From: Adlercreutzia sp. ZJ473
Lineage (GTDB): Bacteria > Actinomycetota > Coriobacteriia > Coriobacteriales > Eggerthellaceae
NCBI RefSeq assembly: GCF_013185065.1
Contig: NZ_JAAVTO010000010.1
Coordinates: forward strand, 1 to 60,221
DNA length: 60,221 bases
Direction: 5' to 3'
In this document: in pieces, positions 5,657 through 47,132 of the stretch
Layout of the letters: every line of letters starts with the position of its first letter
How positions within the stretch are numbered: the first letter of the stretch is position 1
Made by a program: the position numbers and the translations under genes
The notes under the pieces: model-generated
Seen by the model: the letters and a program-made list of their open reading frames with translations, nothing else
What the model was told of the DNA's origin: nothing
Databases searched by the model: none

Positions 5657-6646
5657 ATGGGCGCGGACGCCTGCGCCTCTGCCTGCGCCTCTGCCTGCGC
5701 CGCGGGCGCGGAGCGCGCCGGCGGCGTGCCCTTCGCGCTCGCCCCGGTGAACGTGGTGGCGGGCCACTACGGCGTGGGCAAGACGAACCTCGCGATCAAC
5801 CTGGCGATCGACGCCGCGCGGGCGGGGCATGACGTCACGCTCGTCGACCTCGACGTGGTGAACCCGTACTTCCGCTCGACCGAGTACCGCGGCGTGCTCG
5901 AGGAGGCGGGCGTCGACGTGGTGGCGCCCGTGTTCGCCGAGGCGGGGTCGAGCCTCGACGTGCCGTCCCTCACGGGCGCCGTCGTCCCCGCCGTCGAGCG
6001 CGCCTACGCCGACGCTGCTTTTGAGGATGCAGGGGGCGCCGCGGAGGGGCGGACGCGGAGCAGAGCTCAGTCGCTCGGACAGTCCTGCTCGCACGGAAGC
6101 GCCGCAGGCGCTTCCGGCTCGTGCGGAACTCGCTTGGTGAGCACCGCACCGCGTCCGCCCCTCCACCCCCAAGTCTCTGCGCCGTGCCGGGGCGGCGGAC
6201 GCGCCCGCATCGACGCCGCGCCGTCGCCCCGCACCGTCGTCATCATCGACGCGGGCGGCGACGACGCGGGCGCCATGGCGCTCGGCCGCTTCGCGCGCCA
6301 CGTGGCGGCGGGCCCCTACGCGCTGATCTACGTGGTGAACCGCTTCCGCAACCTGACGCAGGAGCCCGACGAGGCCCTCGAGGTGCTCGCCGAGATCGAG
6401 CGCGCGGCGCGCCTGCGCGCCACCGGCGCCGTGAGCAACGCGCACCTCAAGGCCGACACCACCGGCGAGGTGGTAGCGCGCGGCGCGGCGTTCGCGCAAG
6501 CGGTCGCCGACGCCGCAGGGCTTCCGCTCCTGTGCGTTACGGCGCCAAAAACGCTCACTCAGCCAGAATCCGACGAACTGTCATCGTTGCGAGGCGCCTT
6601 CAACCTGTATCCTGTTGAGCTGCGTGTGAAGACGCCCTGGGAATGA
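5657..6646 (+). CDS. P-loop ATPase/nucleotide-binding protein carrying an internal repeat element
   Basis: The N-terminal part has a Walker A motif in GHYGVGKTNLAINLA (about residues 35-50) and LVDLDVVNPYF, as in ParA/MinD-like or CobQ/CbiA-type ATPases. The C-terminal part resumes with VVIIDAGGDDAGAMALGRFA. Between them, about residues 120-195 are a low-complexity Ser/Gly/Ala/Arg stretch encoded by repeat copy 1 (6043-6164) and its flanks. The reading frame stays open through the element, so the protein may be made with an inserted linker or may be inactivated. The start is 1 bp after the synthetase stop. Its exact role is unknown. Confidence 0.75.
   Translation: MGADACASACASACAAGAERAGGVPFALAPVNVVAGHYGVGKTNLAINLAIDAARAGHDVTLVDLDVVNPYFRSTEYRGVLEEAGVDVVAPVFAEAGSSLDVPSLTGAVVPAVERAYADAAFEDAGGAAEGRTRSRAQSLGQSCSHGSAAGASGSCGTRLVSTAPRPPLHPQVSAPCRGGGRARIDAAPSPRTVVIIDAGGDDAGAMALGRFARHVAAGPYALIYVVNRFRNLTQEPDEALEVLAEIERAARLRATGAVSNAHLKADTTGEVVARGAAFAQAVADAAGLPLLCVTAPKTLTQPESDELSSLRGAFNLYPVELRVKTPWE
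6043..6164 (+). repeat. Dispersed structured repeat, copy 1 (inside the P-loop ATPase gene)
   Basis: The outer stem is a perfect 16-bp inverted repeat (6043-6058 with 6149-6164, GGAGGGGCGGACGCGG and its complement). Inside lie the shared core (GCTCA at 6065-6069 pairing with TGAGC at 6138-6142) and an inner hairpin GGAAGCGCC-GCA-GGCGCTTCC (6095-6115). The core is almost identical to copies at 36268 and 46002, while the outer stem sequence is specific to this copy. It lies within an open reading frame and keeps the frame open. Confidence 0.85.
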
Positions 6647-8869: not shown

Positions 8870-9402
8870 GTCGCGAGCTTCAGATCGTGCTCGCCGGCTT
8901 CGGCGGGCAGGGCGTGCTCTTCGCCGGCAAGGTGATGGCGTACGCGGGCCTCATCGAGAACCGCGAGCTGTCGTGGCTGCCCTCCTACGGCCCCGAGATG
9001 CGCGGCGGCACGGCGAACTGCTCGGTCACGCTGTCTGACGAGCCCATCGGCAGCCCGCTCGTGACCACGCCCGACGTGCTCGTCGCCATGAACCAGCCGT
9101 CGTTCGACAAGTTCATCGACGTGGTGCGCGAAGGCGGCGTGGTCATCGCCGACACCGACATGGTGCCCGAGCTCAAGGAGCGCGAGGGCGTGAAGGTCGT
9201 GGGCGTCCCCGCCACCTCGCTCGCCGAGGGAGCGGGGCTCAAGGGCCTCGGCAACATCGTGCTGCTCGGCAAGCTCTGGGCCGAGACGCAGTTCTGCGAG
9301 CGCGCCACCGTTGACGCGGCCATCGAGAAGTGCGTCCCGCCGCGCAAGGCAGCGCTCATCGACAAGAACAAGCAGGCCATCGGCCTGGGAATCGAGGCAT
9401 GA
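8866..9402 (+). CDS. 2-oxoacid:ferredoxin oxidoreductase gamma subunit
   Basis: The 178-aa gamma subunit has the family opening LQIVLAGFGGQGVLFAGKVMAYAGL and the SYGPEMRGGTANCSVTLSDEPIGSP motif. The start chosen is GTG at 8866, overlapping the beta stop and preceded by a strong GGAAGGAGG site at 8851-8859; longer in-frame starts would fall inside the beta gene. Its stop overlaps the ATG of the XRE-cupin gene (ATGA at 9399-9402). The regulator is therefore in the same transcription unit as the enzyme. Confidence 0.93.
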   Translation: MSRELQIVLAGFGGQGVLFAGKVMAYAGLIENRELSWLPSYGPEMRGGTANCSVTLSDEPIGSPLVTTPDVLVAMNQPSFDKFIDVVREGGVVIADTDMVPELKEREGVKVVGVPATSLAEGAGLKGLGNIVLLGKLWAETQFCERATVDAAIEKCVPPRKAALIDKNKQAIGLGIEA

Positions 9403-9953
9403 GCATGGACGAGCTGAAGGAGATCGGCCTGCGCATCCAGGGTCTGCGCGAGGCGTGCGACATGACGCCCGAGGAGATGGCGCGCGAGCTGGAAGTGAGC
9501 GTCGAGCAGTACCTGAGCTGGGAGGAGACGGGGGCTGACGTCCCCATCTCGGCCATCTACCACATGGCGCACGAGTTCGGCGTCGACCTCACCGAGATCC
9601 TCACGGGGACGGCGGCGAAGCTCGACACCTACCACGTGGTGCGCCGCGGGCAGGGCAAGGAAGTCGACCGCTACCCGGGCTACCACTACGACGACATGGC
9701 ATGGCGCTACTCCAACAAGATCATGCAGCCGCTCGTGGTGGTGCTCGACCCCTCTGACGAGCCGGCGAAGCTCGTCTCTCACCAGGGGCAGGAGTTCAAC
9801 TTCGTCATCGAGGGCTCCATCGTGGTGACCTTCGACGACAAGGAGATCGTGCTCGACGAGTGGGACAGCATCTACTTCAACCCCACGCACCCGCACGGCC
9901 AGCGCTGCCACGGCGACAAGACCGCGAAATTCATCACGATCATCGCCGAATAG
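9399..9953 (+). CDS. XRE-family transcriptional regulator with C-terminal cupin (copy 2)
   Basis: Paralogue of the gene at 3189: HTH in residues about 5-62 (IGLRIQGLREACDMTPEEMARELEVSVEQYLSWEE) and cupin in about 100-180 (LVSHQGQEFNFVIEGSIVVTF, DSIYFNPTHPHGQRC). The start is ATG at 9399, overlapping the gamma stop by 4 bp; ATG at 9405 is an alternative. Length 184 aa. Lying between the oxidoreductase and a second acyl-CoA synthetase, it is a candidate regulator of both (inference). Confidence 0.9.
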   Translation: MSMDELKEIGLRIQGLREACDMTPEEMARELEVSVEQYLSWEETGADVPISAIYHMAHEFGVDLTEILTGTAAKLDTYHVVRRGQGKEVDRYPGYHYDDMAWRYSNKIMQPLVVVLDPSDEPAKLVSHQGQEFNFVIEGSIVVTFDDKEIVLDEWDSIYFNPTHPHGQRCHGDKTAKFITIIAE

Positions 9954-9978: not shown

Positions 9979-10094
9979 CGTCGGGTCGCGGGGCAATGCT
10001 CAGCCGCTCAGACAGTCCTGCTCGCGCGAAATGCTTAGCAAGCATTTCGGCTCGTGCGGAACTCGCTTGGTGAGCACAGCCCCGCGCCCCGGCG
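9979..10094 (+). repeat. Dispersed structured repeat, copy 2 (diverged)
   Basis: The outer arms 9979-9994 and 10079-10094 pair at 15 of 16 positions (one as G-T). The core keeps GCTCAGCCGCTCAGACAGTC and GGCTCGTGCGGAACTCGCTT nearly as in the other copies. The inner hairpin has a completely different sequence, CGAAATGCTT-AGC-AAGCATTTCG (10027-10049), yet pairs perfectly over 10 bp. GCACG of the other copies is GCGCG here, opposite CGTGC, which still pairs as RNA through G-U. It fills the 193-bp gap between the regulator and the second synthetase. Confidence 0.85.
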
Positions 10095-10146: not shown

Positions 10147-11820
10147 ATGGATTACATCTTGAAGAAATACTGCCCCCGCATCGAGTTCGACTCGTACGAG
10201 GACTTCTACGCCAACTTCCGCATCGACGTGCCCGAGGTGTTCAACTTCGGCTACGACGTGGTGGACGAGTGGGCGCGCGTCGAGCCCGGCAAGCGCGCGC
10301 TTCTGTGGTGCGACGACGCGGGGGAGGAGCGCACCTTCACCTTCACCGACATCTCCCGCCTGTCGAACAAGACGGCCAACGCCTTCCGCAAGATGGGCAT
10401 CGGCAAGGGCGACGTCGTCATGTGCATCCTGCGCCGCCGCTGGGAGTACTGGGTGGTGGCCACGGCGCTGTGCAAGCTGGGCGCGACCATCATCCCGGCG
10501 TCGCTGCAGCTCACCAAGAAGGACATCGTGTACCGCGCGAACAGCGCGAACGTGAAGATGATGGTGTGCGTGGACGACGACTACGTGTGCACCCAGACCG
10601 AGCTCGCGCTGCCTGACGCGCCGACCATCACCAACCGCGTGGTCGTGGCGGGAGGCCGCGAAGGCTGGACGAGCTTCGACGAGCTGATCGCCGACGAGCC
10701 CGACGCCTTCGAGCGCCCCACCGGCGAGGCGGGCGTCACGAGCAAGGACATCATGCTCATCTACTTCACGAGCGGCACCACGGGCAACGCGAAGGCGGTG
10801 TGCCACAACTTCGCGCATCCCCTGGGCCACATCATCACGGCCAAGTACTGGCAGCAGGTGCATGAGAACGAGCTGCACATGAGCGTGACCGACTCGGGCT
10901 GGGCCAAGTTCGGCTGGGGCAAGATCTACGGCCAGTGGATCGCGGGCGCCACGGTGTTCGTGTACGACATGATGAAGTTCGTGCCCACCAAGCTGCTGCA
11001 GAAGATCCAGGACTACAAGCTCACCACGTTCTGCGCGCCGCCGACCATGTACCGCTTCATGCTGCAGGAGGACGTGGCGGCCTATGACCTGTCGAGCGTG
11101 CAGAACTTCGCCACGGCGGGCGAGCCGCTGAACGCCGAGGTCACCATCCAGTGGGAGCGCCTCACGGGCAAGAAGATCCGCGAGGGCTTCGGCCAGACCG
11201 AGGGACCGGTGCTCCTGGCCACCTTCCCCTGGGTCGAGCCGCGCCCCGGCTCCATGGGCAAGCCGTCGCCCCTGCTCAACATCAAGCTGCTCGACGACGA
11301 CGGCGTCGAGGTGGAGGACGGCGAGGAGGGCGCCATCTGCGTCACGGGCCTGAAGGAGGCCTACCCGCCGGGCCTGTTCGTGGGTTACTACCGCGACGAG
11401 GAGCGCACGCGCGAGGCCGTGGGCGGGGAGTACTACAACCTGCATGACATGGCGTGGCGCGACTCCGACGGCTACTGCTTCTTCGTGGGGCGCAACGACG
11501 ACGTCATCAAGTGCTCGGGCTACCGCATCGGGCCCTTCGAGGTGGAGAGCGCGCTCGTGGAGCACCCGGCCGTGGTGGAGTGCGCGGTGACGGCCGCGCC
11601 CGACCCCATCCGCGGCAAGGTGGTGAAGGCGACCATCGTGCTCGCGCGCGGGTACGAGCCCTCCGACGAGCTGGTCAAGGAGCTGCAGAACCACGTGAAG
11701 AAGACGACGGCGCCGTACAAGTACCCGCGCATCGTCGAGTTCACCGACGAGCTGCCCAAGACCATCGGCGGCAAGATCAAGCGCAAGCTCATCCGCACGA
11801 ACGACGGCGTGGTGGACTAG
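10147..11820 (+). CDS. AMP-forming acyl-CoA synthetase (acetyl-CoA synthetase-like), copy 2
   Basis: ANL-superfamily ligase of 557 aa, clearly paralogous to the gene at 3871. It has IYFTSGTTGNAKAV (phosphate loop), EGFGQTEGPVL, VGRNDDVIKCSGYRIGPFEVE (hinge) and KTIGGKIKRKLIR (catalytic Lys). Both paralogues share FNFGYDVVDEW-type N-termini and YRFMLQEDV/YRLMMQEDI blocks. ATG at 10147 follows GAAGGAG at a longer than usual distance. Substrate is not determinable here. A strong bidirectional terminator follows. Confidence 0.9.
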   Translation: MDYILKKYCPRIEFDSYEDFYANFRIDVPEVFNFGYDVVDEWARVEPGKRALLWCDDAGEERTFTFTDISRLSNKTANAFRKMGIGKGDVVMCILRRRWEYWVVATALCKLGATIIPASLQLTKKDIVYRANSANVKMMVCVDDDYVCTQTELALPDAPTITNRVVVAGGREGWTSFDELIADEPDAFERPTGEAGVTSKDIMLIYFTSGTTGNAKAVCHNFAHPLGHIITAKYWQQVHENELHMSVTDSGWAKFGWGKIYGQWIAGATVFVYDMMKFVPTKLLQKIQDYKLTTFCAPPTMYRFMLQEDVAAYDLSSVQNFATAGEPLNAEVTIQWERLTGKKIREGFGQTEGPVLLATFPWVEPRPGSMGKPSPLLNIKLLDDDGVEVEDGEEGAICVTGLKEAYPPGLFVGYYRDEERTREAVGGEYYNLHDMAWRDSDGYCFFVGRNDDVIKCSGYRIGPFEVESALVEHPAVVECAVTAAPDPIRGKVVKATIVLARGYEPSDELVKELQNHVKKTTAPYKYPRIVEFTDELPKTIGGKIKRKLIRTNDGVVD

Positions 11821-27345: not shown

Positions 27346-27446
27346 GCGAGGGCCCCTGACCGCCCAGCTGCTCGCCTTGAGCGCTTCGCGCACAGCTTAT
27401 GCGACCGAAGCGCTTCCGCGGCATCTGAGCGGTCAGGGGCCCTCGC
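27346..27446. repeat. Long inverted-repeat element between rpoZ and thiI
   Basis: The outer arms are a perfect 18-bp inverted repeat, GCGAGGGCCCCTGACCGC (27346-27363) and its complement (27429-27446). Inside is a second stem AGCGCTTCG / CGAAGCGCT (27380-27388, 27406-27414) with a further small CGCA/TGCG stem at its tip. The layout (outer copy-specific stem, inner hairpin, CTGCTCGC on the 5' side) echoes the dispersed repeat family, but the core sequence is not the same. Confidence 0.7.
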
Positions 27447-27497
27447 GCTGGCTTGGCTGACGCTTTTCCCTTCTTCTCTTCCTTTGCGAGGTGCAAC

Positions 27498-36267: not shown

Positions 36268-36391
36268 GGCGCGGCGGGAGCCCGGGCAGAGCTCAGTCGC
36301 TCGGACAGTCCTGCTCGCACGGAAGCGCCGCCGGCGCTTCCGGCTCGTGCGGAACTCGCTTGGTGAGCACCGCCCGGGCTCCCGCCGCGCC
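36268..36391 (+). repeat. Dispersed structured repeat, copy 3
   Basis: Between lepA and the convergent reductase gene. Outer stem: perfect 20-bp inverted repeat GGCGCGGCGGGAGCCCGGGC (36268-36287) with its complement (36372-36391). A 3x3 internal gap AGA/ACC, then GCTCA/TGAGC, the invariant core and the inner hairpin GGAAGCGCC-GCC-GGCGCTTCC (36321-36341). The core differs from copy 4 only in the hairpin loop. Confidence 0.88.
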
Positions 36392-36414: not shown

Positions 36415-37056
36415 CTAGGCGAGGTCGTCCCTCACGAAGTTCGTCATCACCTTCGGCTCGATCTCGGGCGGCGTGATGCCGGCCTCGCGCGCCGCGGCGA
36501 GGCTCTTCAGCATCCAGGCCATGTTGCGGCCGAGCTGGCGCATGGTGTGCAGGCCCTCGCCGTCGCGCTCCGCCTCGCCGGGGGTGCGCCCGTAGGCGAG
36601 GCCCCAGTAGGTGCTCGAGATCACCGGCATGCAGTTGATCTGGAAGTACTTGTTGATCTGGTCGGCCGCCTCCACGGCGCCGGCGCGCCGCGCCACGCCC
36701 ACGCCCGCGGCCGGCTTGAAGCGCAGGAGCGACCCGCCGGCGTAGAACATGCGGTCGAGCAGCGCGATGAGCGAGCCCGCGGCCCCCGCGTAGTACACGG
36801 GCGAGCCGACGATGATGCCGTCAGCCGCCGCGGCCTTCCCGATGAGCTCGTTGCAGCAGTCGTCGTCGAACGCGCAGCGGCTCTCCCCGCTGCGCGCGCA
36901 GGCGCCGCAGGCGATGCAGCCGCGGACCGGCTTGCTGCCGATCCAGGCGATCTCGGCCTCGACGCCCTCGGCGCGCAGCGCGGCGGCCGCCTCCTCGAGC
37001 GCGCGGTTCGTGTTGCCTTCCCGGCGCGGGCTTCCGTTGATGAGCAGGACCTTCAT
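36415..37056 (-). CDS. Flavodoxin-like NAD(P)H-dependent oxidoreductase (FMN reductase family)
   Basis: 213 aa from the ATG at 37056 (complement), preceded by GAGGAGACGC. The N-terminal MKVLLINGSPRREGNTNRAL is the FMN phosphate-binding loop of the flavodoxin fold. GIIVGSPVYYAGAAGSLIALLDR is the second FMN contact. A Cys-rich insert CIACGACARSGESRCAFDDDC (six to seven Cys region, about 56-77) is typical of the iron-sulfur-flavoprotein-like subgroup and may bind a cluster. Cytoplasmic. Substrate unknown. It stands alone, convergent with lepA. Confidence 0.88.
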   Translation of the reverse strand: MKVLLINGSPRREGNTNRALEEAAAALRAEGVEAEIAWIGSKPVRGCIACGACARSGESRCAFDDDCCNELIGKAAAADGIIVGSPVYYAGAAGSLIALLDRMFYAGGSLLRFKPAAGVGVARRAGAVEAADQINKYFQINCMPVISSTYWGLAYGRTPGEAERDGEGLHTMRQLGRNMAWMLKSLAAAREAGITPPEIEPKVMTNFVRDDLA

Positions 37057-43866: not shown

Positions 43867-44706
43867 TTGTCCCTCCACCAGTTCTTCCTGGATGACCAGG
43901 TGCTCGCCGACGAAGGCGCCGCGGTGTTCCCGCTGCGCCTCGCGCCCGACGACGCGCGCCACGCCCGCGTGCTGCGCCTCGCGCCCGGCGAGCACGTCGC
44001 CGTGGTGGACGCGGCGCGCGACTACTTCGAGTGCGAGGTCGTCTCCTTCGACGACGCGATGCCGCTCGTGCGCATCGCGCGGCGCCTCGACGCGCCTGAC
44101 GACGGCCCGCGCGTGATCCTGCTCCAGGGGCTCGCCAAGGGCGACAAGATGGAGACGGTCATCCGCCATGCCACCGAGGTGGGCGTCGAGGCTTTCGTGC
44201 CCTTGAGGTGCGCGCGCTCGGTGATGAAGGTGGACGCCAAGAAGGCCGCTGCGAAGCGGAGCCGCTGGCAGGCCGTCGCGAAGAGCGCCGCCATGCAGGC
44301 GGGACGCCGCGCGGTGCCCGAGGTGAGCGAGCCTCTGGGCCTGCCCGAGGCGTGCGAGCTTCTGGCGAACGCCACCGCCGTGCTCGTGTGCTGGGAGGAG
44401 GCGCCCCAGACGGCGACGATGCGCGCGGCGCTTTCCGACGCGCTGGCGCATGCGGGCTGCGCCGTGGCGGCCGACGCGCGCGTGGCCGTGGTGGTGGGCC
44501 CCGAGGGCGGCCTTGCCCCCGAGGAGGTGGAGCGCCTGCTCTCGTGCAACCCCCGCGCGCGCCTCGTGTCGCTCGGGCCGTCCATCCTGCGCACCGAGAC
44601 GGCCGGCGTCGTGGCGCCGGCGCTCGTCCTCTACGAGCTCGGCGGCATGGGCAACGCGGGCGGCGCGCTCGGGGCGTCTGAGGCGCTCGGGGCGGGGGGC
44701 CTCTGA
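43867..44706 (+). CDS. rsmE: 16S rRNA m3U1498 methyltransferase RsmE
   Basis: SPOUT-class methyltransferase for the decoding-site uridine. 279 aa from TTG 43867, preceded by AAAGGAG. The N-terminal PUA-like part includes DDARHARVLRLAPGEHVAVVD. The knot region has QGLAKGDKMETVIRHATEVGVEAFVP, VVVGPEGGLAPEEVE and the SAM-site SLGPSILRTETAGVVAPALVL. A Gly/Ala-rich tail of about 25 residues follows the usual end. The stop overlaps the mtaB ATG by one base. Confidence 0.94.
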   Translation: MSLHQFFLDDQVLADEGAAVFPLRLAPDDARHARVLRLAPGEHVAVVDAARDYFECEVVSFDDAMPLVRIARRLDAPDDGPRVILLQGLAKGDKMETVIRHATEVGVEAFVPLRCARSVMKVDAKKAAAKRSRWQAVAKSAAMQAGRRAVPEVSEPLGLPEACELLANATAVLVCWEEAPQTATMRAALSDALAHAGCAVAADARVAVVVGPEGGLAPEEVERLLSCNPRARLVSLGPSILRTETAGVVAPALVLYELGGMGNAGGALGASEALGAGGL

Positions 44707-45938
44707 TGCGGTTCGCCGTGGTCAACCTGGGGTGCAAGGTGAACCGCGTGGAGTCGGACGGCTTCGAGCGGCTCCTTCTGGCGGCGGGCGGCGTGGAGGC
44801 CCCGCAGGAGGAGGCCGACCTCATCGTGGTGAACACGTGCACGGTCACCGCCGAGGCCGACAAGAAGACGCGCAAGGCCGTCCGCCATGCGCTGCGGGCC
44901 AACGCGTCGGCCCGCGTGGCGGTCACCGGCTGCGCCGCGGCCATCGACGAGGACGCCTTCTCGTCCATGGACGCGCGCGTGAGCGTGGTCCCCAAGGCCG
45001 GCATGGGCCTGTGGCTCGCCGACGCCGCTCACGCGGGCGCGGGCGCCGCAGCTGCGGAGGCGAGCGCGGCCTGCGAGCCTGACCTCGCGCTCTTCTCCTC
45101 GCGCACGCGCGTGGGCGTGAAGGTGCAGGACGGCTGCGACAACGCGTGCACCTACTGCATCGTGCACGTGGCGCGCGGGCGCGCGACGAGCCGGCCGGCA
45201 CCCGAGGTCCTCGCCGAGGTCGTGGCGCTCGCCGCTTCGGGCGTGCGCGAGATCGTGCTCTCGGGCATCAACCTCGGCTCGTATCGCTGGGAGGGCAAGG
45301 GCCTGGCCGCGCTGCTCGAAGAGCTCCTCGCCGCCACCGCGCGCCTGCATGAGCCCGGCGAGCCGCCGTGTCGCTTCCGCGTGAGCTCCGTCGAGCCCAT
45401 GGACGTCGACGACGGCTTCGCGAGCCTGCTCGCCCGCGCCGACGGGCGCGTCTGCCGCCACCTGCACCTGCCCCTGCAGTCGGGCAGCACCAAGGTGCTC
45501 CGCGAGATGGACCGCCCGTACACCGCCGAGGAGTTCAAGGGCCTCGTGGGCCGCCTGCGCGCGCAGGTGCCCGCGCTCTCGCTCACCACCGACGTCATCG
45601 TGGGGTTCCCCGGCGAGACGGAGGGGGAGTTCGCCGAGACGCTCGAGGTCGCCCGCGCCTGCGCGTTCAGCAAGATCCACGTGTTCCCCTATTCGCAGCG
45701 CGCAGGCACGCCCGCCGCCGCGCGCGCCGACCAGGTGCCGCCGCCCGTGAAGGCAGCGCGCGCCGCCCGCCTGCGCGCGCTCTCCGACGAGCTGCGCGCC
45801 GCCGACCGGGCACGACGCGCCGGCACCAGCGAGCTCGCGCTCGTGGAGGAATCCGGCCGCGCCATGACCGAGAGCTACCACGAGACCACCGCCCCCGCCA
45901 ACGCAAAGCCCGGCGCCCTGATCCAAGTGAAGCTCTAA
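44706..45938 (+). CDS. mtaB: tRNA t6A37 methylthiotransferase MtaB
   Basis: Radical SAM enzyme converting t6A to ms2t6A in tRNAs. 410 aa. The N-terminal UPF0004 domain has LGCKVNRVESDGF and VVNTCTVTAEADKKTRKAVR plus TGCAA, supplying the auxiliary-cluster Cys residues. The radical SAM motif is CDNACTYCIVH (about residues 144-154). DVIVGFPGETEGEFAETL is conserved. The C-terminal TRAM is short. The order dnaJ-rsmE-mtaB is common in Gram-positives. Confidence 0.94.
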   Translation: MRFAVVNLGCKVNRVESDGFERLLLAAGGVEAPQEEADLIVVNTCTVTAEADKKTRKAVRHALRANASARVAVTGCAAAIDEDAFSSMDARVSVVPKAGMGLWLADAAHAGAGAAAAEASAACEPDLALFSSRTRVGVKVQDGCDNACTYCIVHVARGRATSRPAPEVLAEVVALAASGVREIVLSGINLGSYRWEGKGLAALLEELLAATARLHEPGEPPCRFRVSSVEPMDVDDGFASLLARADGRVCRHLHLPLQSGSTKVLREMDRPYTAEEFKGLVGRLRAQVPALSLTTDVIVGFPGETEGEFAETLEVARACAFSKIHVFPYSQRAGTPAAARADQVPPPVKAARAARLRALSDELRAADRARRAGTSELALVEESGRAMTESYHETTAPANAKPGALIQVKL

Positions 45939-46001: not shown

Positions 46002-46125
46002 GGCGCCTCGGGAGCCCGGGCGGTGCTCACCAAGCGAGTTCCGCACGAGCCGGAAGCGCCAGCGGCGCTTCCGTGCGAGCAGGACTGTCCGAGCGACTGA
46101 GCTCTGCCCGGGCTCCCGAGGCGCC
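46002..46125 (-). repeat. Dispersed structured repeat, copy 4 (inverted)
   Basis: Lies between mtaB and phoH on the opposite strand to the other copies. Outer stem: perfect 20-bp inverted repeat GGCGCCTCGGGAGCCCGGGC (46002-46021) with its complement (46106-46125). Inner hairpin at 46052-46072. Relative to copy 3 the outer stem has GG changed to CT on one side and CC to AG on the other, so pairing is preserved. The core is otherwise the same as copy 3 apart from the hairpin loop. Confidence 0.88.
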
Positions 46126-46166: not shown

Positions 46167-47132
46167 ATGACCGATCAGACACAGATTACCCTCACCATCC
46201 CCGACAGCGTGAGCATGGCGCTCGTGGTCGGCGAGGCCGACGAGATCCTGCGCACGCTGCAGGACGCCTACGAGGCGCGCATCACCGTGCGCGGCAACGC
46301 CATCTCGCTCGTCGGCGACCCCGTCGAGGTGCAGTCGCTCACCGCCATCTTCTCCGACCTCGTCAAGCTCGTGAAGGGCGGCGACGTGCCCGACGCCGCG
46401 TACGTGCGCCACGCGCTCGACCTCATGCGCACGGCGGAGTTCTCGCCCACGGCGCTGCGCGAGGACGTCCTGCTCACGTACCGCGGGCGCGCCGTGCGCC
46501 CGAAGACCACGGGGCAGAAGCGCTACGTCGACGCCATCCGCGCGCATACCATCACCTTCGGCATGGGGCCGGCCGGCACGGGCAAGACGTATCTGGCCAT
46601 GGCCATGGCGGTCGCGGCGCTGAAGCGCAAGGAGGTCGGCCGCATCATCCTCACGCGCCCCATCGTGGAGGCGGGGGAGAGCCTCGGCTTCCTGCCCGGC
46701 ACCCTCACCGAGAAGGTCGACCCCTACATCCGCCCGCTCTACGACGCGCTCTTCGACATGTGCGACGCCGAGCGCGTGAACCAGCTCATCGAGGCGGGCA
46801 CCATCGAGATCGCGCCGCTCGCCTTCATGCGCGGGCGCACCCTGAACGACAGCTTCATCATCCTCGACGAGGCGCAGAACACCACCCCCGAGCAGATGAA
46901 GATGTTCCTCACGCGCCTGGGCTTCGGCTCGAAGATGGTCATCACCGGCGACGCCTCGCAGATCGACCTGCCGCGCGGGGCCTCGGGCCTCACGCGGGCG
47001 CGCAGCATCCTCGAGGGCGTCGACGACATCGCGTTCTGCACGTTCACCGGCAAGGACGTCGTGCGCCACTCGCTCGTGGCCGCCATCGTGGCGGCCTACG
47101 ACCGGGCGGCCTCCGCGGCGAGCCGGTCCTGA
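46167..47132 (+). CDS. phoH: PhoH-family ATPase
   Basis: Predicted RNA-associated P-loop ATPase. 321 aa. Walker A is GPAGTGKTYLAMAMA (about residues 134-148) and Walker B FIILDEAQNTTPEQMKMFL, followed by the sensor TGDASQIDLP. The N-terminal KH-like part (about 1-100) is standard for PhoH2/PhoL forms. It is directly upstream of ybeY, a pairing seen across bacteria that links it with rRNA maturation and quality control. The start at ATG 46167 lacks a good ribosome site and lies just after CTACAATAG, which could be its -10 and give a near-leaderless mRNA. Confidence 0.93.
   Translation: MTDQTQITLTIPDSVSMALVVGEADEILRTLQDAYEARITVRGNAISLVGDPVEVQSLTAIFSDLVKLVKGGDVPDAAYVRHALDLMRTAEFSPTALREDVLLTYRGRAVRPKTTGQKRYVDAIRAHTITFGMGPAGTGKTYLAMAMAVAALKRKEVGRIILTRPIVEAGESLGFLPGTLTEKVDPYIRPLYDALFDMCDAERVNQLIEAGTIEIAPLAFMRGRTLNDSFIILDEAQNTTPEQMKMFLTRLGFGSKMVITGDASQIDLPRGASGLTRARSILEGVDDIAFCTFTGKDVVRHSLVAAIVAAYDRAASAASRS

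Follow-up and report, generated by a model that had tools for sequence, protein, structure and literature searches.

A palindromic repeat family of the Coriobacteriales with a near-invariant core and compensated arms, most likely a mobile DNA element

Between lepA (end 36222) and the convergent gene 36415-37056 (-) of Adlercreutzia sp. ZJ473 lies a foldable sequence of the kind usually met in structured RNAs or in palindromic mobile elements, and the question which this locus raises is to which of the two it belongs. We analysed it within a stretch of 60,221 nucleotides (the window), in which an earlier note had described four copies of the sequence. All four are real: copy 1 at 6043-6164 (+), copy 2 at 9979-10094 (+), copy 3, the one under study, at 36268-36391 (+) and copy 4 at 46002-46125 (-), with covariance-model scores of 135, 122, 136 and 139 bits respectively. 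Copy 2 is intergenic between the co-directional neighbours 9399-9953 and 10147-11820, and copy 4 lies between the co-directional genes 44706-45938 (MiaB/MtaB-like) and 46167-47132 (PhoH-like). A further model match at 27346-27447 (-) is weak (21.6 bits, E 0.06) and is perhaps a decayed copy or a chance match, and a 25-nt imperfect inverted repeat (72%) was seen at 46220-46332 within the phoH-like gene.

Judging by the copies of the window and its relatives, the element is a mirror-image (palindromic) DNA repeat of ~115-125 bp. In the alignment (columns 1-117) its 5' half runs from an outer arm of 15-24 nt through a short mismatched step (A·A, often A·C) and a stem P2, usually GCTCA/TGAGC in the aligned copies, to the 5' core GTCGCTCRGACAGTCCTGCTCGC; this is followed by one free base, a cap hairpin with a 9-10 bp stem and a 3-nt loop, the 3' core GCTCGTGCGGAACTCGCTTGG, P2' and the other outer arm. 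The cap hairpin and the outer arms are copy-specific in sequence, with pairing kept. In copy 3 an inverted-repeat search placed the outer arms at 36268-36290 and 36369-36391 (+), and alignment of the copies placed the two strands of the invariant core at 36296-36318 (GTCGCTCGGACAGTCCTGCTCGC) and 36343-36363 (GCTCGTGCGGAACTCGCTTGG), on either side of a covarying, copy-specific cap hairpin with a 10-bp stem and a 3-nt loop (36320-36342), all on the + strand. Copy 1 is likewise complete, with arms at 6043-6064 and 6145-6164 and P2 formed by GCTCA (6065-6069) and TGAGC (6138-6142). The inverted-repeat search also found an imperfect third copy of its arm, GGGGCGGCGGACGCG, at 6189-6203 (+), 25 bp past the 3' arm, which is possibly the footprint of a fold-back event. 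Compared with dinucleotide shuffles the copies have folding z-scores of -5.7 to -7.4 on either strand, and both strands fold equally well. The fold previously described from the letters holds for P2, the cap hairpin and the outer arms. Conservation does not extend to the proposed GCACG/CGTGC stem, whose middle base varies freely (A, G or T depending on the copy, opposite a constant T). The proposed 3x3 internal loop is a feature of particular lineages, Collinsella-type copies being mostly paired across it. The outer stems had also been said to pair fully, which is not the case for copy 2, where the arm is broken by a mismatch and was undetected as an inverted repeat.

The core is the most constant part of the element. 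In the window's genome, 15 copies contain the exact pattern GACAGTCCTGCTCGC-[cap]-GGCTCGTGCGGAACTCGCTT (reversed-pattern control: 0), which was also found once each in four other genera, where the cap, P2 and arms differ. Around 40 core bases are near-invariant across families; scored over 36 strict core positions, 16 of the 20 copies in the window's genome show no deviation, and those of other genera deviate by 1.25 on average. The core also has subtypes whose inner portion changes jointly on both sides (TCGCN...GCTCG vs TTTGG...CGTCG). We also observed a short form which lacks the cap hairpin and has a CAGTCCTCGCTTCGCTGTGGAACT-type core, at L239:2463-2552 and L249:2400-2489 of one congeneric genome (G001).

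The earlier note had suggested building a covariance model and searching related Coriobacteriia, and this search found many further copies. Three congeneric genomes contain 20 (G000, the window's genome), 20 (G002) and 19 (G001) copies. Matches were present in 77 of 138 Eggerthellaceae genomes and in 172 of 396 Coriobacteriia genomes, including Collinsella, and these belong to six families of the same order; in other orders of Coriobacteriia the matches were weak and mostly single. Copy number varies greatly within a genus, with the genomes of genus g51 containing 1, at least 26, 0 and 11 copies, where per-genome counts in the 138-genome scan are lower bounds because no more than 26 candidates were scored in each genome. 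One annotated record with the element is from Collinsella aerofaciens, and the single match among plasmid records was to a Collinsella aerofaciens record. NZ_OY725717.1 (L299, L300), a 900-kb Collinsella record labelled plasmid 6, contains the his operon, eno, purH and murB and therefore looks like part of a chromosome. Carriage by phages or viruses was considered and rejected: blastn found no match to the element in phage records, and while exact core halves occurred in 25 and 1 IMG/VR contigs, the element was absent from the 12 of these loci searched with the model.

Searching Rfam at the gathering threshold and at a permissive threshold gave no match, only unrelated sub-threshold miRNA hairpins, and a literature search, largely outside subscription journals, found no paper describing such an element. 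Both results agree with the earlier statement that no named family matches. The Coriobacteriales repeat family is previously undescribed, and the kind to which we assign it, the palindromic mobile repeat, is already known. The segment GACAGUCCUG, which looked hairpin-ribozyme-like, was dropped as a lead as matching catalytic loop sequences are absent. An intrinsic terminator was not supported either, the arm having no consistent T-run after it by eye.

Compensated stems are commonly taken as the mark of an RNA, and it is possible to read the element as a structured non-coding or cis-regulatory RNA (for 3'-end processing, stability, attenuation or as a ribozyme or aptamer) in which the stems are kept by RNA pairing; the near-invariant core surrounded by covarying stems and the strong folding z-scores are in favour of this. 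We aligned 97 copies, including 6 palindromic reverse-strand shadows. Rather than varying without compensation, the additional copies had double changes in 32 of 33 pairs (0 of 500 shuffles as high), 821 compensated cells compared with 233 in shuffles, and 93% paired cells compared with 65% in shuffles and ~42% after sliding the partner, where the size of the effect, though not its existence, is inflated because the alignment is model-fitted and its rows are related. RNA helices tolerate G·U and not A·C. In the cap, 879 pairs were Watson-Crick, 2 were G·T and 4 were A·C; across the cap, P2 and arm positions 3-17 the imperfect pairs comprised 45 G·T and 55 A·C (P = 0.37). As the two are about equally frequent, neither strand shows a G·U bias, and pairing is therefore strand-symmetric, as in a DNA palindrome. 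This absence of a G·U excess, the equal folding of both strands and the lack of an Rfam match all count against an RNA.

Compensation can also be followed between species. In 8 orthologous pairs of copies with the same orientation in G000 and G002, the arms carry 7 double Watson-Crick changes and ~12 single ones, which implies that compensation arises in situ and within a short time; the G002 orthologue of copy 4 has two compensated arm changes. Inverted repeats are reported to undergo template switching which makes their arms alike and turns the spacer round, coding genes included (PMC8604942), and which generates hairpins and preserves them with compensated changes (PMC8794818). These effects on arms and spacers, also in coding genes, are what the Coriobacteriales repeat has in common with such quasipalindrome mutation, which is however a mutational process and not an element, and which we propose as the shaper of the arms and not as their mover. 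The earlier note considered compensated stems to mark selection on structure; the compensation is borne out, and the inference of selection is insecure because there is no G·U bias and because template switching has been reported to homogenise arms without selection (PMC8604942, PMC8794818). Template switching would be a sufficient mutational cause of the arm compensation, and selection on the DNA hairpin may also be at work.

Comparison of G000, G001 and G002 showed that sites vary by species, being either occupied or empty. The stretch which bears the copy 1 insertion is absent from both G002 and G001, the copy 2 site is empty in G001 and holds two tandem copies of opposite orientation in G002, and the copy at L210 is absent from both relatives; the check for empty sites, which had been proposed earlier, found these three copies missing from sister species. 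Copy 3 has no counterpart immediately behind lepA in ZJ176 (locus L076). No clean target-site duplication or insertion boundary was readable at the empty sites examined, which differ by more than the element, nor at L207, where the flanks are rearranged in G002, or L216, where the locus is missing from both relatives. L207:2470-2586 adjoins a break in synteny, with the left flank collinear and the right flank inverted ~7 kb away (G002 C1:98788-107904). The copies at L206 (+) and L207 share arms that differ by compensated changes, an indication that the arms travel with the element.

Orientation also changes at shared sites, differing at 5 of the 13 compared sites which are occupied in both G000 and G002. 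That the core had simply inverted from one species to the other was partly rejected as the cause: 3 of the 5 changes have an adjacent remnant in the other orientation, so the addition of an inverted copy followed by truncation fits better. In trmD of G000 (L215:1950-3006) a truncated sense half-copy, oriented as in G002, stops at the cap palindrome, and a full antisense copy comes after it, both in frame. A full or partial extra copy lies within 250 bp of 18 of 59 copies, compared with 1 of 177 in the control. Neighbouring pairs, tandem or inverted and ~120-175 bp apart, were seen at L172 (6938/7092), L224 (2442/2566), L231 (2461(+)/2606(-)), L236 (2422/2565), L021 (1469/1644) and L064 (1501/1641). 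Judged by these footprints, the changes of orientation and the extra copies are what would be expected of fold-back template switching.

Palindromic, multi-copy units arranged in tandem and inverted pairs recall BIMEs and REPINs, and a REP/REPIN-type repeat moved by a Y1 (RAYT, TnpA-REP) transposase would be an obvious candidate. However, Y1_Tnp is absent from G000 (99.9% complete), G001 and G002, which nonetheless have ~20 copies each, and there was no association with Y1 across the 138 genomes (42/77 vs 29/61, P = 0.49), on which grounds we rejected this candidate as very improbable. The unit, with its internal core, is also far above REP size, has no conserved GTAG/CGTC-type tag at the foot of the hairpin, and beyond the G-rich arms no flanking k-mer is common to most copies. 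What it does share with REPs and REPINs is the form of dispersed hairpins which often stand in adjacent inverted pairs.

Many copies lie inside genes. According to a codon-usage gene caller, 8 of 20 copies in G000 (~40%), 6 of 20 in G002 and 9 of 19 in G001 are within ORFs, in either orientation. The eight G000 host genes, with Pfam support, encode a ParA/CbiA ATPase, a HisH-type GATase, Mfd, a radical-SAM DUF512 protein, a CoA-enzyme activase, an ABC-F-type ATPase, TrmD and a GNAT-TsaD fusion, and the intragenic copies are in frame with their hosts. Copy 1 is one of these: its host gene (5657-6646, +) encodes the CbiA/ParA (MRP-like) P-loop ATPase, and the element is read in frame as SRAQSLGQSCSHGSAAGASGSCGTRLVST. 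The element translates as AQSLGQSCSHGSAAGASGSCGTRLVST in sense and as GAHQASSARAGSAGGASVRAGLSERLSS in antisense, and AQSLGQSCSHGSAAGASGSCGTR is an example of the peptides predicted from intragenic copies. The L210 copy is in a frame where TGAGC would be a stop, and here P2 has changed, with compensation, to GCGCA/TGCGC, so that the TGA is removed. The TsaD copies of three species have one extra core base, which moves the reading out of the TGA frame; as the extra-base variant exists elsewhere too, this point is only suggestive. Both features are candidate signs, read from the sequence, that the intragenic copies are translated.

Outside genes, the copies in G000 lie mostly 10-120 bp beyond a stop codon, as do three annotated Collinsella copies. 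Copies also tend to share the sense of the genes around them (36:15, P = 0.005, with the caveat that orthologues are not independent). Position and bias would both suit an RNA. Intragenic copies on both strands, shared sites without conserved orientation and sites which are empty in relatives would not. Strand symmetry, empty sites and genic copies on both strands therefore weaken the RNA reading, and we consider it unlikely, keeping it in view because of the near-invariant core and the sense bias. The earlier note had left the choice between a structured RNA and a palindromic mobile element; the first option is weakened, and the second is well supported by copy number, presence and absence between species, the use of both orientations and the in-frame copies. 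A mobile DNA element is the most likely reading, rather than a regulatory RNA.

The same core could alternatively be a DNA site which benefits the host, bound by a nucleoid, segregation or recombination protein, and dispersed by replication errors. Its near-invariance across the order and the presence of several sites common to the three species, at ~80% nucleotide identity, are in agreement with this. Set against it, the element is undetected in nearly half of the family's genomes and ranges from 0 to at least 26 copies in one genus, and frequent placement inside genes would be costly for a housekeeping site, so we regard such a primary role as improbable.

We compared the repeat with known mobile palindromes. 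Rickettsia palindromic elements are described as multi-copy palindromes of ~100-150 bp which occur between genes and in frame in unrelated genes, to which they add a peptide (PMC10969869, which summarises Ogata et al. 2000, 2002). The Coriobacteriales repeat resembles them in size, palindromic form, copy number and in-frame placement in unrelated genes. It differs in belonging to GC-rich Actinomycetota, another phylum, in having a core that is near-invariant throughout the order and arms which vary freely with compensation, and in being used in both orientations, which change at shared sites; the likeness is one of working and we do not claim common descent. ERIC (RU-1) and other MITEs are palindromic, include a 127-bp size class, vary in copy number between species and are occasionally intragenic with ORFs (PMC2759123, PMC10969869), all of which applies here. 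In contrast to these, ~30-47% of the Coriobacteriales copies in the three genomes are intragenic, the arms are copy-specific instead of conserved terminal inverted repeats, and neither a target-site duplication (the empty sites being diverged) nor a parent IS (in the Y1_Tnp search of G000) was found.

Taken as a whole, it is probable that the copies form a non-autonomous, MITE-like mobile palindromic DNA repeat of the order which holds the Eggerthellaceae and Collinsella. Under this explanation a putative trans-acting machinery would recognise the folded core and move the element, probably in the form of a hairpin of single-stranded DNA; the search for a mobilising enzyme, which covered Y1_Tnp, found none. 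Fold-back template switching during replication would keep the arms and cap as near-perfect palindromes, and might also make the tandem and inverted partial copies and alter orientation. Purifying selection would purge frame-breaking insertions, so that those which persist lie in frame inside genes or just past stop codons. It should be noted that the core is more constant than is usual for decaying non-autonomous elements, which leaves room for a further function in the host. More tentatively, the core could be the recognition fold of a transposition or replication machinery which copies hairpin DNA by fold-back, with the arms re-made each time as perfect complements, representing a class without a known transposase. 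If this were true, a class of element would be systematically adding peptides to the housekeeping proteins of dominant gut Coriobacteriales.

Palindromes which invade ORFs are best known from Rickettsia. The family described here is found order-wide in common gut bacteria, among them the Adlercreutzia, Eggerthella and Collinsella group, and lies in frame in HisH, TrmD, Mfd and TsaD-type proteins, which makes it a natural test bed both for what moves such palindromes and for how far covariation arises from DNA template switching as opposed to selection on RNA. It is also a caution for RNA discovery pipelines which treat covariation as proof of an RNA.
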